Assembly (NCBI RefSeq): GCF_007860075.1
Contig: NZ_SJPP01000001.1
Location: 4,437,490-4,501,489, forward strand
DNA length: 64,000 bases
Reading direction: 5' to 3'
Source: Symmachiella macrocystis
GTDB taxonomy: Bacteria; Planctomycetota; Planctomycetia; Planctomycetales; Planctomycetaceae
In this document: in pieces, positions 37,915 through 45,836 of the stretch
Numbering within the stretch: position 1 is the stretch's first letter
Layout: every line of letters begins with the position of its first letter
Notes under the pieces: model-generated
Told to the model about the DNA's origin: nothing
The model's input: the letters and a program-made list of their open reading frames with translations, nothing else
Database searches by the model: none
Program-made: the position numbers and the translations under genes

Positions 37915-38496
37915 CTATTCCCAGGCGTCCATGATTTCCTGGAGTTGTGAATTCTCAGCACCGGGTGCGTTGGCGGTCTCGGGCGATGGGGAGGGCTCGG
38001 GCAGGGCATTTTCTCGGGGAATTGGCGTAGCGGAGGGGACGCGCCGTACCCGCGACCAAGCTTCTTCGAGGCGTCGCCGGGAGGGGCGGTCCAGGGCGCG
38101 GTCGCGCGCCATTTCGATCAACCGCGCCAATTTGCTGTGAAACTCTTTTTTGGTAAAGCTGGTTTTGATCAGGTAGTCGGTGGCGCCTGAGTGAATGGCG
38201 GCAATGACAGTTTCACGGCTGGCGTCGCTGGAGAGGATCATCACCGGCAATTCGGCCAAGACTTCATTGCGGCGAATGGTCCGCAACGTTTTCAAACCAT
38301 CCCACCCCGGCATCCGGATGTCGAGAATGATGGCATGGGGGGGATGGGCCAACGCCTTGCGGTATCCTTCTTCTCCGTCGGCTGCGACGAACACGATGTA
38401 TTTTTCGCGCATGACCGAAGCCAGCATGCTGCGGAAGAGTGGGTCGTCGTCGATAATGAGTACTTTGGACCGGCGGGCCCCAATTTCATTAACCAT
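37915..38496 (-). CDS. Response regulator receiver protein
   Basis: Start at ATG 38496 (MVNEIGARRSKVLIIDDDPL). Residues 10-125 are a CheY-like receiver: acidic pair in LIIDDDPLF, phospho-acceptor Asp in ILDIRMPGWDG, ILSSDASRE (Ser at the switch position), and Lys in YLIKTSFTKKE. A basic segment (RDRALDRPSRRRLEEAW) and a Pro-rich disordered tail follow, with no DNA-binding domain, so it is probably a protein-protein output. It follows the 76-residue gene by 71 bp on the same strand. No histidine kinase is adjacent, so the partner is unknown. A TTG at 38517 is an alternative start. Confidence 0.88.
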   Translation of the reverse strand: MVNEIGARRSKVLIIDDDPLFRSMLASVMREKYIVFVAADGEEGYRKALAHPPHAIILDIRMPGWDGLKTLRTIRRNEVLAELPVMILSSDASRETVIAAIHSGATDYLIKTSFTKKEFHSKLARLIEMARDRALDRPSRRRLEEAWSRVRRVPSATPIPRENALPEPSPSPETANAPGAENSQLQEIMDAWE

Positions 38497-38567
38497 TAGG
38501 TGATCAGCCTCAAACAACCGAAAGGACCCGGAAGATCGGCCCGCACTCCGACTGGCGCGGCGATCGG

Positions 38568-38798
38568 CTACTTTTGAGTAAACTGCACAATAATGGGCTG
38601 GTCGGAACCCTCAGGCTGATTCTCGGTCGCTAAATCAATGATCTCATTGATTTTTTGTAAAAGTTCCACACCGCGCTCGGAGATATCCAGCGGTGTTTCT
38701 GGATCAGTCTCGGTCGTCTCTTCGGGCGCAAGGAGCAGTGTTTCGTCAGGCGCAAGGAAATCAGTGTCCGCAAATCGGGGACCATTCATAAGGGCCAC
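38568..38798 (-). CDS. Small acidic hypothetical protein upstream of response regulator
   Basis: The 76-residue product (start GTG 38798, or ATG 38789) has an acidic stretch (ETTETDPETPLDISERGVEL) followed by an amphipathic helix LQKINEIIDLATENQPEG. No family is recognised. It lies just ahead of the response regulator on the same strand, so it could be a partner or a small regulator of that protein, though this is only position. No membrane segment or signal peptide. Confidence 0.5.
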   Translation of the reverse strand: MALMNGPRFADTDFLAPDETLLLAPEETTETDPETPLDISERGVELLQKINEIIDLATENQPEGSDQPIIVQFTQK

Positions 38799-39052: not shown

Positions 39053-40831
39053 CTATTTGCTGGGCAGTTTGACGATTCCGTCCCAATCGCCCGGGGCTTG
39101 GCGGTTGTGCTGGGCGATGAGGACGTTGAGAAAGTCCTGTGCCCGGTCGCTGGGCGGGATGTCGTGCAGCGCTCGATAGGACTGTTCCCAATCCCCGGCG
39201 AGAAAATTGGTCACCGCATGTTCATACGATGCCAAATGCGCCGCGGTGAGCTCCGGAAAGGCGGCTTCAGGGGGTAACAGTTCGCTGACCGTTACAGGGG
39301 TCTGCATCCCGTAGGGTAAGACACGGGCTAATTTGCGAATGCGGCCCTCTTCGGGAGTCAACTCGTCTTGGATCCGATCAACCAAAGCTTCGTCCAACAG
39401 AATCGGGACGCGGAGTTGTTTGGTCATGCCCTCCAGCCGGCTGGCGAGGTTGACGACTGGCCCAAACACGGTGACTTTGACGTGGTTGGTCGTGCCGATT
39501 TTTCCCGCCACCGCTCTGCCGTGTGCAATGCCGATCCCCATCTGGAAATCGGCCAACGCGTGATCTTTTTTCCCAGCCGTGGCGGCAAAGGCGGCGCGAA
39601 TTCCCAAAGCGGCGCGACAGGCGTCCAGTGCCGCTGAATCAGTGGCGACTGGCCAGCCCCAAAAACCCATCGCCGCATCTCCCTGGTAATCGCCGATCAC
39701 CCCGCCATGTTCGGAAATATGGTGCGTCATCACGCCCAGGGCTTGGCTGACGCGATCAAGAAGATGGATCAATTCATCGCGGGCCCCTTCGGCCTGTTTG
39801 CTAAAACCGCGGAGGTCGCAAAACAACACGGTGACGTCGCATTCGCGCGGATCGAGACTTTTGGTGTCGAAACCGTCTCCCAACGACGATAAAATTCGCG
39901 GCGCGAAGAATTGTCGCAAACCCGCTTGTTGCCGTTCCAGGCGATTGACCTGCCGCACGGCGCTAATAATTTCAGCCATCAACTCGGCAAATTTAACGTC
40001 GCCCCGCAACTGCTGTTCGCTGGTATCTATTTGTCCGGCTGGATTGGCGGCACGATCAAAACGACCGGCCAGATAAAGTCCCCAACCTTGCGTAGCAGCG
40101 CCGCGGACCGGCGTGCAGAACGCCCAATCGAATTCTTGCGTGATGGTGTAATCCGCCTGATGATGCTCTTCGCTTTCCCAGACGTGTAGGATGCTTTGCT
40201 CTTTTTCCAAGACGGCCGCCCGGATCAGACGCGTGCTAGGGCGGAATTCTCCGGCGACTTCCAGACGACGCTCCCAATGTTCAATCACCGGCGGATCATC
40301 GCCCGTAATCGATACGACCGCAGCCGCTTCGGCCCCGGCAATCCCTGCCAGGAGGGTAGTTGTCAGGCGGACGAACAATTCTTCATCAGTCCGCGCCCCC
40401 CAGATCACATCGGGCAAGTGTGTTAATACCTCGATACGTCTGTCGGCATCTAGAAATTGAATCCGCCGCAAGTCGTCGCGAGAAAAGGCGACTTCTTCCA
40501 CCGGCTGGGTGGGAGTCGACGGTCGTGGTGTCCGCGCATCGCTGAATAGAAACGCAGTCTGTCCCAGCACAAAATGCTCGCCGGGTTCCAACTCGCAGGA
40601 CTCGACCTGTGCACCGCGATGAAAAAGTGGATTGGCTGCGACGGCGAATCTGCGGACGCGGAGAGAATCGCCGACGAGGTGCACTTCGACATGTTTCCGC
40701 GAAATGGACTTATCCCAGGGAACGGCTAAGTCGCATTGTTCGTCGCGACCGACCGCGAGCGGTTTGTCCGGTTTGATCACGACCGTCGTGCGGTTCTGGG
40801 ATTCGGCGCATTCGGCCGTTAGTTCAGCCAA
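39053..40831 (-). CDS. FHA-GAF-class III adenylate/guanylate cyclase
   Basis: The 592-residue protein has three parts. Residues 15-100 are an FHA domain (LAVGRDEQCDLAVPWDKSIS, RKHVEVHLVG), which binds phosphothreonine peptides. Residues 130-290 resemble a GAF sensor (VRLTTTLLAGIAGAEAAAVV). Residues 325-500 are a class III cyclase catalytic domain: VTVLFCDLRGFSKQAEGARD (metal Asp), GVIGDYQGDAAMGFWGWP (second metal Asp), and TVFGPVVNLASRLEGMTKQL (transition-state Asn and Arg). The substrate is probably ATP but base specificity is not proven. Its first 8 bp overlap the kinase stop codon, so it is translated with the kinase. Confidence 0.9.
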   Translation of the reverse strand: MAELTAECAESQNRTTVVIKPDKPLAVGRDEQCDLAVPWDKSISRKHVEVHLVGDSLRVRRFAVAANPLFHRGAQVESCELEPGEHFVLGQTAFLFSDARTPRPSTPTQPVEEVAFSRDDLRRIQFLDADRRIEVLTHLPDVIWGARTDEELFVRLTTTLLAGIAGAEAAAVVSITGDDPPVIEHWERRLEVAGEFRPSTRLIRAAVLEKEQSILHVWESEEHHQADYTITQEFDWAFCTPVRGAATQGWGLYLAGRFDRAANPAGQIDTSEQQLRGDVKFAELMAEIISAVRQVNRLERQQAGLRQFFAPRILSSLGDGFDTKSLDPRECDVTVLFCDLRGFSKQAEGARDELIHLLDRVSQALGVMTHHISEHGGVIGDYQGDAAMGFWGWPVATDSAALDACRAALGIRAAFAATAGKKDHALADFQMGIGIAHGRAVAGKIGTTNHVKVTVFGPVVNLASRLEGMTKQLRVPILLDEALVDRIQDELTPEEGRIRKLARVLPYGMQTPVTVSELLPPEAAFPELTAAHLASYEHAVTNFLAGDWEQSYRALHDIPPSDRAQDFLNVLIAQHNRQAPGDWDGIVKLPSK

Positions 40832-43052
40832 GTGACGAACTCCTCCCGCTGCCGGACAACGCTTCAGTTTCGATATTGCGGCCTCGTCGAGGTTGCGACG
40901 AGCCGATGCGGACCGTGCGATTGCTCACGCCGCGTAACAAGAAGTACCACAGAGCGCCGATCAGCGCAAAAAACGCCGACAGTCCGATCATGCCGTAGAA
41001 CATCAATTCCGATTGGACTTTCTGCACGGGTTGAATCGCTTCGGTGTGGCGCTCCTGAGCAACGGTCCACCAGTCGGTTCCGGGGACCCGGGCAAAGGCG
41101 GCTAACCAGCGCTGTTGGTCCTCGCCGCGTTTTACGGCTTCTTGATCAAGCCGGTCCGCAGGATCGTGGTGTTGGTTTTCGATGATCACATCCATCTCGC
41201 CCGCATCTTGCGTCGGGTGGTTCGAATGCGGGTACTGTGCGAGTTTTTCACGCATTGCGAGGCTGAGTTCCAGATCCTCAATGGTGGCTGCAACCTCGTC
41301 GTTGTCAAGACCTTCAAATCGCGAGGGGGCCATCAAGGGATGATCTAAAAATTTGCCGTTGCGTCCGTCGATCATGGCGACCCGTCGCGACTCTCCCAAC
41401 GTTTTCGCGGAGAGCAATTTTCCCAAGTCGATGGTGCGGGCGAGCACGCCCAGCGGTTGCGAGGTTTTTTTATCACGGACGACGACCGAGATGGCCACCA
41501 TGTAGCTATTCGTCTCTTCGCTGACGAAGGGGGCGGAGATGTGAAATGTTTTCTCATCCCAATGCGTTTGTACATCTTTGACGTCCACGGTTTTGGGGAG
41601 CTGTTTGCCGCCCCAATGAAAATAATCGCGCCAATGATATTCACCGTCGATCGTATCGCCATAAGGATCACGCCACAGTTGAACGCCTTTGGCATCGGTG
41701 AGAAACCAACTGCGATCCAACAGATAGTCGATGTCGCTGTCATTGGCGACTGTGTTCCGCGACCGTGCTTTCAGCGTTCGCGGGACACTATAGCGGCGGC
41801 GGAAATTTTTAAGCAATGCTTCCAGCTGGGAACGCTTGTTCTGGGGCAATTCCCCTTCACGATAAATGGCCTCTGCCAATTCTGGATTCCTCGCTACGCT
41901 GTGCAATTGACCGATCAAGCCGACCAGTTCGCTTTCCAGCATCCGCGCGGTCGCCTTGGCCGCTAGTTTGTTGTTCTCTGAGGCCTGGAAAACCACCGCC
42001 GATTCGGAGGTGGCCACCGCTTGATCGCCGGCCTGGAATCCCAAGGGGACCAGCGCCAACAGCAGCAGCAAGGGGGCTATGATGCCCATTACGATCGCCG
42101 GACGACGGGCGCGTTGTTTGGCACGAACTTTGAATGCTTCCAAGGCGGCTTGCGCATTGGGGTAACGCCGTGCAGGATTCATTTCCAGGCAGCGATCCAC
42201 GATATGCACCAAGCGTTTATCGACTCCCGCAACCCGACGATGTGCCGAGGGCCGCTCGGCGGATTGCAGCGTTCCCCGGTAAACCGCCAACCGTTCACGC
42301 AGGCTATCGGTGGCGAGAATCTTTTGTTCGACTTCGGGGGTGCGAAACGGCGGGTGTCCGCATAAACAATGGTACAACAGCGCACCGAGCGCGTAGACGT
42401 CCCAGCGTGCATCGGGCACCGCCGCCAGATCCGCTTGATCGGGCGCCATATAAAACAAAGTCCCCAGTGCCGGGTCCTGAGAGTTGGACAGTCGGGACTG
42501 ACCAAAATCCGCCAAGCGAGGTTGCATGTCACCATCGAGCAGCACATTGGCCGGTTTGATGTCGCAATGCAAAATCCCGCTGCCATGGGCGTGGACCAGC
42601 GCCCGCAACACCGCTTCGGCAATACGGACCGATTCGGTCATAGGCAACGGTCCCTCCCGAAGTAGCGCTGCCAAGGATCCGTTTTCCAAATACTCCATGA
42701 CGTAATAAGGAGGTTGCGCATCCCAGCCGACTTCATAAAGCCGCACAATATCGCGGCTCGTATAGAGCATGGCCAGTTTTTCGACTTCACGATTCAGCAG
42801 CGACCAATCCAGACCGCCGCGGTGCGTGTAGAATTTGATGGCGACCTGCTTGCCGGTGTTTTGCTCCCAAGCCAACCAGACAGAACCGTAGGCCCCTTCG
42901 CCCAGGCAGAGGTTGATTTTGTAACCCGGCACGTCCCCCGGCGGCCGCAATTTCCGCCGACTCAGCCGCGCGGACCGATCGGAACTCTCAGCATCCTGCC
43001 GGAGCGTATCATCGGGCGCGGTCGAGATCGGTCGGCTGGGGCTATCGGTCAT
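40824..43052 (-). CDS. Transmembrane Ser/Thr protein kinase with extracytoplasmic Cache-like sensor
   Basis: The 742-residue protein starts at ATG 43052 (a TTG at 43058 is possible). Residues about 45-305 are a Hanks-type kinase: glycine loop LGEGAYGSVWLAWE, VAIKFY, ILHCDIKPANVLLD (catalytic Asp; HCD rather than HRD), LADFGQSRLS, and MAPDQADL in place of APE. Next come a membrane helix (VMGIIAPLLLLLALVPLGFQ), an extracytoplasmic region with DSDIDYLLDRSWFLTDAKGV and WRDYFHWGGKQLP (double Cache-like), and a second helix (LMFYGMIGLSAFFALIGAL) near the C-terminus. The ligand is unknown. It precedes the FHA-cyclase with an 8-bp overlap. Confidence 0.9.
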   Translation of the reverse strand: MTDSPSRPISTAPDDTLRQDAESSDRSARLSRRKLRPPGDVPGYKINLCLGEGAYGSVWLAWEQNTGKQVAIKFYTHRGGLDWSLLNREVEKLAMLYTSRDIVRLYEVGWDAQPPYYVMEYLENGSLAALLREGPLPMTESVRIAEAVLRALVHAHGSGILHCDIKPANVLLDGDMQPRLADFGQSRLSNSQDPALGTLFYMAPDQADLAAVPDARWDVYALGALLYHCLCGHPPFRTPEVEQKILATDSLRERLAVYRGTLQSAERPSAHRRVAGVDKRLVHIVDRCLEMNPARRYPNAQAALEAFKVRAKQRARRPAIVMGIIAPLLLLLALVPLGFQAGDQAVATSESAVVFQASENNKLAAKATARMLESELVGLIGQLHSVARNPELAEAIYREGELPQNKRSQLEALLKNFRRRYSVPRTLKARSRNTVANDSDIDYLLDRSWFLTDAKGVQLWRDPYGDTIDGEYHWRDYFHWGGKQLPKTVDVKDVQTHWDEKTFHISAPFVSEETNSYMVAISVVVRDKKTSQPLGVLARTIDLGKLLSAKTLGESRRVAMIDGRNGKFLDHPLMAPSRFEGLDNDEVAATIEDLELSLAMREKLAQYPHSNHPTQDAGEMDVIIENQHHDPADRLDQEAVKRGEDQQRWLAAFARVPGTDWWTVAQERHTEAIQPVQKVQSELMFYGMIGLSAFFALIGALWYFLLRGVSNRTVRIGSSQPRRGRNIETEALSGSGRSSSLG

Positions 43053-44939: not shown

Positions 44940-45449
44940 TCAAAGGGATTCGACGTGCGAGTCGCTCAGTTCCGCGAACGAACCTTCCCCGTCGACGGCC
45001 GGTGAATTCACGTCAACGTCCGAATCCTCGACGATGTCATAATCCTGGTCGCTGGTACTTTCGGCTACCAGTGGCGTTGCCACCGAATCGAGGCCCTTCA
45101 TCTTTTTGACCGGCGTGGAGCTTCCATTCCCGTTCAATTTGTCGCGCCCCTCAGCTCGATTTTCTGAGCCGTCTCCGACAAAGAATTTCAGGTCGCCGAT
45201 CACAACGTCGTCACCTAGGTGGATTTCCGATTCTTCAACGTTTGCGCCGTTGACCGTAACACCGTTGGTGCTGCCCAGGTCACGAATCAGCAGACGGTTT
45301 CCCGCCTGTGCAATGCAACAGTGAATGCGGGAAACTTTGCGACTCGACACCAGGATAATGTCGCAACTGGGATGCCGACCGACTAACAGGATCGCTTTAT
45401 CCAGTTTGATCGGGTCTCCGTCGAGATGCGGAGTAAGACAGATTGGCAT
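44940..45449 (-). CDS. FHA-domain protein
   Basis: The start ATG 45449 is chosen because GGAG lies about 10 bases upstream and it removes an unrelated leader. The 169-residue protein is an FHA domain in residues 15-90 (AILLVGRHPSCDIILVSSRK, VSRIHCCIAQAGNRLLIRDL, GSTNGVTVNG) with the phosphopeptide-binding Arg, Ser, His and Asn present. An acidic, Ser-rich disordered tail follows (DIVEDSDVDVNSPAVD). Such a protein can read threonine phosphorylation, and a Ser/Thr kinase lies 2.4 kb upstream in the same orientation, but no direct link is shown. Confidence 0.88.
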   Translation of the reverse strand: MPICLTPHLDGDPIKLDKAILLVGRHPSCDIILVSSRKVSRIHCCIAQAGNRLLIRDLGSTNGVTVNGANVEESEIHLGDDVVIGDLKFFVGDGSENRAEGRDKLNGNGSSTPVKKMKGLDSVATPLVAESTSDQDYDIVEDSDVDVNSPAVDGEGSFAELSDSHVESL

Positions 45450-45836
45450 AGACCGGCTCCAACAAAATGATTCGCTCTTTTTCATCTTATCGACTGTTTG
45501 AGGCAAAGGGAATCATTTTTCGAGCAATTCGCAGCGTGGAAAGCCCGAACAAACGACGATTTTGGCTGGTTTCGGCGGGATTTAAGATGTCTGGAGGTCG
45601 AATTCCGCATGACGAAAGTATCGATTTCGCCCCAACCTACCGCTGTTTCGCAGTAGAAATCGCCGAATTGTCCCGGATCCCTCCGCCTTGATTGCCAGTC
45701 CAGTCGCAACAGCCGTATGATGTCCGGATTATGAGCCGGGGAAGTGTTGTACGAGAAAACTGTTTTTCACCCGCGCCCCGAATTTGCCGTACAGAATTGG
45801 CACAAAACGACGTTGAAACCAACCAGGAGCTGACTG
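45450..45836. other. Divergent intergenic region, no gene seen
   Basis: In 387 bp, I see no gene. It should hold promoters for the FHA gene (minus) and the FAH gene (plus). AGGAG at 45825-45829 is the ribosome site of the FAH gene. Confidence 0.45.

Follow-up and report, generated by a model that had tools for sequence, protein, structure and literature searches.

In actinobacteria, an autophosphorylated threonine in the disordered N-terminal tail (N-tail) of the kinase PknG recruits the FHA partner GarA/OdhI (PMC8546545). A serine/threonine (Ser/Thr) kinase and an FHA protein are also encoded together in type VI secretion, where Fha, paired with the kinase PpkA, reads phosphothreonine (pThr) (PMC3953482), and in Myxococcus PKN2 a Ser/Thr kinase is linked to a class III cyclase domain whose specificity positions hold Glu and Thr (PMC1262709). 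Here, we describe two genes of Symmachiella macrocystis that encode a receptor-type Ser/Thr kinase and a predicted FHA-class III nucleotidyl cyclase. They lie in a stretch of 64,000 nucleotides of contig NZ_SJPP01000001.1 (the window, to which all coordinates refer). Comparisons of their sequences suggest that the pair may work as a receptor-kinase-to-cyclase switch, in which the FHA domain would dock on phosphorylated Thr16 (pThr16) of the kinase; we give this reading a probability of roughly 0.6.

The locus departs from each of these precedents. PknG is soluble and carries TPR and rubredoxin-like parts, whereas the kinase studied here is a dCache receptor kinase; a TPR domain, the mark of the PknG family, was not found in it, only Pkinase and dCache_1 scoring above the Pfam cut-off. 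GarA/OdhI regulates metabolism and involves no cyclase, whereas the FHA partner is here a predicted second-messenger enzyme. The target of Fha in type VI secretion is pThr14 of the secretion component TssL, and no cyclase is described there (PMC3953482). PKN2 is one fused chain with no FHA link described, whereas the present system would consist of two proteins with a phospho-dependent contact. PknG-GarA/OdhI docking is the nearest precedent, and the contact that we propose would be known in kind and put to a new use. No description of an FHA-cyclase/kinase pair in planctomycetes was found in the literature, as covered by open papers. The same genome contains a 1324-amino-acid open frame (L003, G000:C1:3369718-3372324) that matches both Guanylate_cyc and Pkinase and is probably a fused kinase-cyclase.

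To our knowledge, the outputs of planctomycete Ser/Thr kinases are hardly known, and the S. macrocystis genome holds 59 Pkinase matches. This conserved kinase-cyclase pair, for which a candidate docking residue can be named, gives access to such outputs. In the switch that we favour, the dCache domain would sense a ligand or the state of the membrane and control the kinase, which would phosphorylate Thr16 in its own disordered N-tail. The FHA domain of the cyclase would dock on pThr16 and, as conservation and co-variation suggest, the loop around its residue 42 would read the residue three positions after the threonine (+3). Two cyclase chains docked on a kinase dimer would then have their class III domains joined, or released, so that docking would set cyclic nucleotide production at the membrane, possibly of cyclic GMP (cGMP) rather than cyclic AMP (cAMP). 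If true, surface sensing would be converted to a cyclic nucleotide and the PknG-GarA docking logic would extend to a second-messenger enzyme.

Inheritance of the kinase-cyclase pair

Across 392 genomes of the phylum, full-length relatives of the cyclase turned up solely in the class of the window, where 38 of 40 genomes have one; no orthologue was found in 352 genomes of other classes, in which the best expectation value (E) was 4.2e-33 against a bar of 1e-40. Outside the class the cyclase alone was used as query, and the kinase was searched within the class, where its orthologue occurs in exactly the same 38 genomes. The remaining two (G257 and G377) have neither orthologue, the kinase query returning generic kinase matches only. 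Of the 38 genomes with both orthologues, 26 have the two genes side by side, kinase first, and in the other 12 they lie apart, by up to megabases in the single-contig assemblies G307, G105 and G024. A larger table of 297 class genomes, read by hand with limits of E ≤ 1e-45 for the kinase and E ≤ 1e-40 for the cyclase (the latter set after seeing the list), contains 166 genomes with both genes, 2 with the kinase only (G404 and G543), 14 with the cyclase only and 115 with neither (Fisher p = 2e-63, relatedness ignored). Both genes are jointly absent from members of separate genera in the window's family, g7 (G257, G484, G613) and g276 (G520), and also within family f109, while G521 and G557 hold two adjacent pairs each.

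The kinase and the cyclase are inherited as a pair across several families of the class. The conservation beyond close relatives on which the original prediction had staked the pair is therefore found, with adjacency in 26 and co-occurrence in all 38 genomes. Adjacency is common in families of recent shared ancestry, as would be expected if common descent in one operon were all that linked the two genes, but they are also present or absent together where they are unlinked (12 of 38 genomes) and within several families, which makes this explanation very unlikely. Family f101 contains in addition a second, divergent kind of kinase-cyclase pair, adjacent and with altered FHA domain and tail (L280/L318, L286/L317, L288/L316, L281/L310, L282/L307, L283/L308 and L284/L306).

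Predicted catalytic domains and substrate

Open reading frames and Pfam matches bear out the two proteins foreseen by the original prediction, a kinase with an extracytoplasmic Cache-like sensor and, in a gene overlapping by 8 bp, an FHA/class III cyclase. The kinase matches Pkinase (1.4e-43) and dCache_1 (Table 1), both above cut-off, and hydrophobic stretches, read from the sequence, flank dCache on both sides. This organization is that predicted for a Cache-type receptor kinase, with dCache between two membrane spans. By its Gly loop, Lys, HxD and DFG it is also classified as a Hanks-type Ser/Thr kinase, the catalytic Lys, HCD and DFG each being present in 41 of 41 aligned kinases. The replacement of HRD by HCD and of APE by APD, with DFG and Lys intact, had been noticed earlier and is confirmed: HCD is the rule of the family and marks a non-RD kinase, whereas Asp at the APE position occurs only in the window copy (Glu in 40 of 41). 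Non-RD kinases are often independent of activation-loop phosphorylation. The predicted structure of the kinase is poor, with a mean predicted local distance difference test (pLDDT) of 50, and the fold search was therefore made without it.

The cyclase is predicted with a mean pLDDT of 82. Its Guanylate_cyc match (3.4e-12, 46.8 bits against a cut-off of 21.9) is shared by 8 of 8 family members, and Asp339, Asp385, Asn461 and Arg465 are each found in 52 of 52 aligned cyclases (L037 and L065, apparently from one contig, are both counted in this alignment). The Pfam match, together with two metal-binding Asp, the Asn and the Arg, identifies it as a predicted class III nucleotidyl cyclase. A fold search with the model, which bore mainly on residues 303-525, returned class III cyclases for this part (OaPAC, Z 21.5 over 202 residues; CyaB, Z 20.9). 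Fold and catalytic residues are those of CyaB, CyaC, OaPAC and Cya2, from which it differs by an Asp at the Lys position, an FHA N-terminus and the lack of a recognised light or cyclic-nucleotide sensor. The GAF domain that had been placed between FHA and cyclase is the part of the earlier assignment that stays unproven: none of 8 family members matches a GAF profile at E up to 1, and residues 129-256 have a predicted helix/strand order compatible with a GAF-like fold, followed by a long helix (268-305).

In class III cyclases, ATP specificity is described as going with Lys/Asp, and GTP specificity with Glu combined with any of Cys, Ser, Thr, His, Ala and Gly (PMC4215837). In register with the Lys of OaPAC, the first purine-specifying position of the pair's cyclases is Asp in 50 and Glu in 2 of the 52 aligned sequences, none of which follows the adenylate-cyclase rule of a Lys at this position; the second is Thr in 41, Ser in 3 and Gly in 8. 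They appear to resemble the guanylate-cyclase rule without equalling it, the acidic residue being Asp, not Glu, in 50 of 52. The exchange of the adenylate-specifying Lys for Asp makes GTP a possible substrate and, through Asp381 in the window copy, cGMP a possible product. Another cyclase of the S. macrocystis genome (L001) aligns a different, conventional-looking stretch at the purine position.

A candidate docking site in the kinase N-tail

The FHA domain of the cyclase (Pfam 3.3e-5, above cut-off) has the GR, SxxH and Asn signature expected of a pThr reader, and the residues predicted to contact pThr are kept across the family (Arg and Ser in 52, Asn in 51 and His in 50 of 52 cyclases). FHA domains are described as reading pThr and the residue at +3, with Arg83 of Rad53 setting the +3 preference of that domain (PMC4037201). 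In the kinase, an alignment scan for conserved Ser/Thr outside the catalytic core returned Thr16 (Thr18 if counted from TTG) and Ser31, each present in 41 of 41 sequences. With more diverged orthologues included, Thr16 is a Thr in 101 of 101, and Ser31 is Ser in 99 and Thr in 2 (L163, which has no motif, and L165, whose N-terminus is cut off, were excluded), in a tail of which the other columns mostly have an entropy of 2.4-3.9 bits. The +3 position holds Gln in 82, Met in 14, Leu in 2, and Tyr, Pro and Lys in one each of these 101 kinases; in a further 30, read by eye, Thr is kept in all and Gln at +3 in 28. This conservation suggests that Thr16, with its +3 residue, is a candidate FHA docking site. 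In G404, a genome where the cyclase query gave no match at E ≤ 1e-10, the divergent kinase lacks Thr16, Gln19 and Ser31.

Defined strictly (TxxQ/M/L, a spacer of 9-13 residues, L/M and S/T), the motif occurs in 90 of 102 family tails, in 0 of 27 other kinases encoded by the same genome and in 2 of 28 taken from other genomes; the loose form TxxQ/M occurs in 98 of 102, 8 of 27 and 15 of 28 tails, respectively. The own-genome controls represent 27 of the 58 other kinase matches, 3 of 30 loci (L194, L210 and L214) having no usable tail. Two further candidates were rejected. Docking through the C-terminal tail (C-tail) or a juxtamembrane strip of the kinase was discarded, the C-tail being variable or missing in L034, L042, L057, L059, L070 and L079, and TxxQ, found by eye elsewhere in 7 of 10 divergent f101 tails, is uninformative given the 23 of 55 controls with the loose motif. 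Separately, HRD-type kinases L179, L187 and L192 (G412) and L180 (G563), from f101 genomes that carry the cyclase, have tails such as GTVVQSPLEAAASAAVS, near the docking motif.

The +3 residue was also compared with each of 81 FHA columns in 78 kinase-cyclase pairs. The largest difference between cyclases with Gln and with Met/Leu partners falls at residue 42 (distance 0.81). This residue precedes the SxxH Ser by two positions, the same offset that separates Arg83 from Ser85 in Rad53. Residue 42 is aromatic in 15 of 15 cyclases with a Met partner (Phe in 13, Tyr in 2) and in 5 of 58 with a Gln partner, where it is otherwise Arg, Gln, His, Lys, Ala or others; the two Leu partners go with His. 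A cyclase tree made without the FHA part (13 pairs with +3 and residue-42 letters typed by eye, leaving out pairs with unreadable FHA or odd tail) contains two Gln/Met switches, in family f101 and in G492 of the window's family, and each was accompanied by a change of residue 42 to an aromatic; over the whole tree, this position became aromatic about 7 times. We consider this co-variation suggestive, not significant. Of the earlier proposal that FHA reads the autophosphorylated kinase, what has been gained is thus a candidate threonine with a conserved +3 residue. The most specific version, in which the receptor kinase would phospho-dock a guanylate cyclase through pThr16, with clade-specific +3 codes TxxQ and TxxM, to make cGMP, would give Planctomycetia a class-wide route from phosphorylation to a cyclic nucleotide; it is tentative and rather doubtful.

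A different role for the docking site is conceivable, pThr16 recruiting the cyclase only as a substrate, while the functional phosphate would sit on the cyclase itself, whose FHA domain may fold back and switch activity. The N-tail autophosphorylation sites of PknG do recruit an FHA substrate that is then phosphorylated (PMC8546545), and the cyclase has conserved Thr, e.g. Thr92 and Thr369. Yet the region before its FHA domain is short and predicted to be disordered, and the cyclase alignment shows no conserved Thr in the linker between FHA and the next domain, in contrast to GarA/OdhI with its ETTS motif; we hold this alternative to be unlikely.

Thr16 and Ser31 could instead be structural or autoregulatory in the kinase, FHA reading another phosphoprotein and the genes being co-regulated in one pathway. 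The helix predicted at kinase residues 21-32, in a low-confidence model, would fit such a role, as would the FHA residues kept by cyclases without a kinase orthologue and the invariance of Ser31, equal to that of Thr16 and unexplained. Thr16, however, falls in a low-confidence segment ahead of this helix, the conservation of its +3 partner is consistent with reading by FHA, and Thr16, Gln19 and Ser31 are all lost in the cyclase-less G404, leaving this explanation quite unlikely.

Besides the unexplained Ser31, a number of observations weigh against the docking switch. The kinase belongs to the non-RD type, and conservation does not extend to its C-tail. In 14 genomes the cyclase occurs without a recognised kinase orthologue; in one of them (G563) the kinase copy is cut off at a contig end, while the cyclase-only copies that were aligned (G642, G474 and G511) keep intact FHA residues, and therefore either FHA reads something else there or the kinase was missed. 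Conversely, the G543 kinase carries the motif, and no cyclase orthologue was found in this 820-contig assembly. In the divergent second pairs of f101 the motif is missing from its normal position, and the tails of such second pairs in f5 and f101 are altered or displaced. The strict motif also occurs in two control kinases of f101 genomes, and the loose motif is so common in unrelated kinase tails (23/55) that only its fixed place and invariance are informative. As for the co-variation, the score of residue 42 (0.81) is barely above that of columns 20 and 25 (0.79), as would be expected with most Met cases in one clade, and the Met/aromatic association amounts to 2 independent events (sign test p = 0.5). 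Finally, an acidic residue at the purine position is common to two more distant cyclases, L081 and L082; as both have Asp there, this Asp is not special to the pair.

Gene layout and neighbouring genes

The features of the locus are listed in Table 1. The kinase frame starts with ATG at 43052, and a start at a TTG (43058) is also possible. The cyclase starts with TTG, and GGGAGGAG (40840-40847), 8 nucleotides upstream, is by its sequence a good ribosome-binding site for this start. The overlap of the two genes had been taken as a sign that they are almost surely translated together; overlaps occur in 5 of 28 adjacent pairs, the remaining 23 being spaced by 4-189 bp, and the 8-bp overlap, not being conserved, is weak evidence of coupling.

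Table 1. Features of the kinase-cyclase locus in the window
Feature	Position	Strand	Basis	Remarks
Receptor-type Ser/Thr kinase gene	40824-43052	-	Open reading frame, Pfam, orthologues	N-tail, kinase domain, transmembrane span, dCache, transmembrane span, short C-tail
Candidate FHA docking motif Thr16-Leu-Arg-Gln19	42996-43007	-	Conservation; codons checked	Predicted cytosolic N-tail
Ser31	42960-42962	-	Conservation	Near-invariant Ser/Thr, 15 residues past Thr16
Kinase domain	42150-42914	-	Pfam and conservation	Lys, HCD (non-RD), DFG; APD instead of APE
dCache_1 domain	41058-41987	-	Pfam 6e-13	Predicted extracytoplasmic sensor
Kinase/cyclase gene overlap	40824-40831	-	Sequence	8 bp
Cyclase gene	39053-40831	-	Open reading frame and Pfam	592 amino acids; FHA, GAF-like part (unproven), long helix, class III nucleotidyl cyclase
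FHA domain	40562-40753	-	Pfam and 52-member alignment	pThr-binding Arg29, Ser44, His47, Asn67 present
FHA residue 42 (Ser44 minus 2)	40706-40708	-	Alignment	Equivalent of Rad53 Arg83; putative +3-reading position
Class III cyclase domain	39401-39838	-	Pfam and alignment	Metal Asp339/Asp385, transition-state Asn461/Arg465 present
Asp381	39689-39691	-	Alignment	Purine-specifying position; Lys in adenylate cyclases
Small acidic open reading frame	38568-38798	-	Translation	76 amino acids, unannotated; between cyclase and response regulator
Response-regulator-receiver protein	37915-38517	-	Pfam	Downstream of cyclase, same strand

A response regulator is also found downstream of the cyclase in 14 related loci of the window's family; given this arrangement, the unit may have four genes, with the small acidic frame as a possible third gene. 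A similar small protein ending in LLVLNEVFDSI was seen by eye at the same place in 8 related loci. A second, stand-alone FHA protein is encoded near the pair (44940-45506, minus strand; Pfam FHA 3.8e-16), and it could compete with the FHA domain of the cyclase for the same phospho-site.

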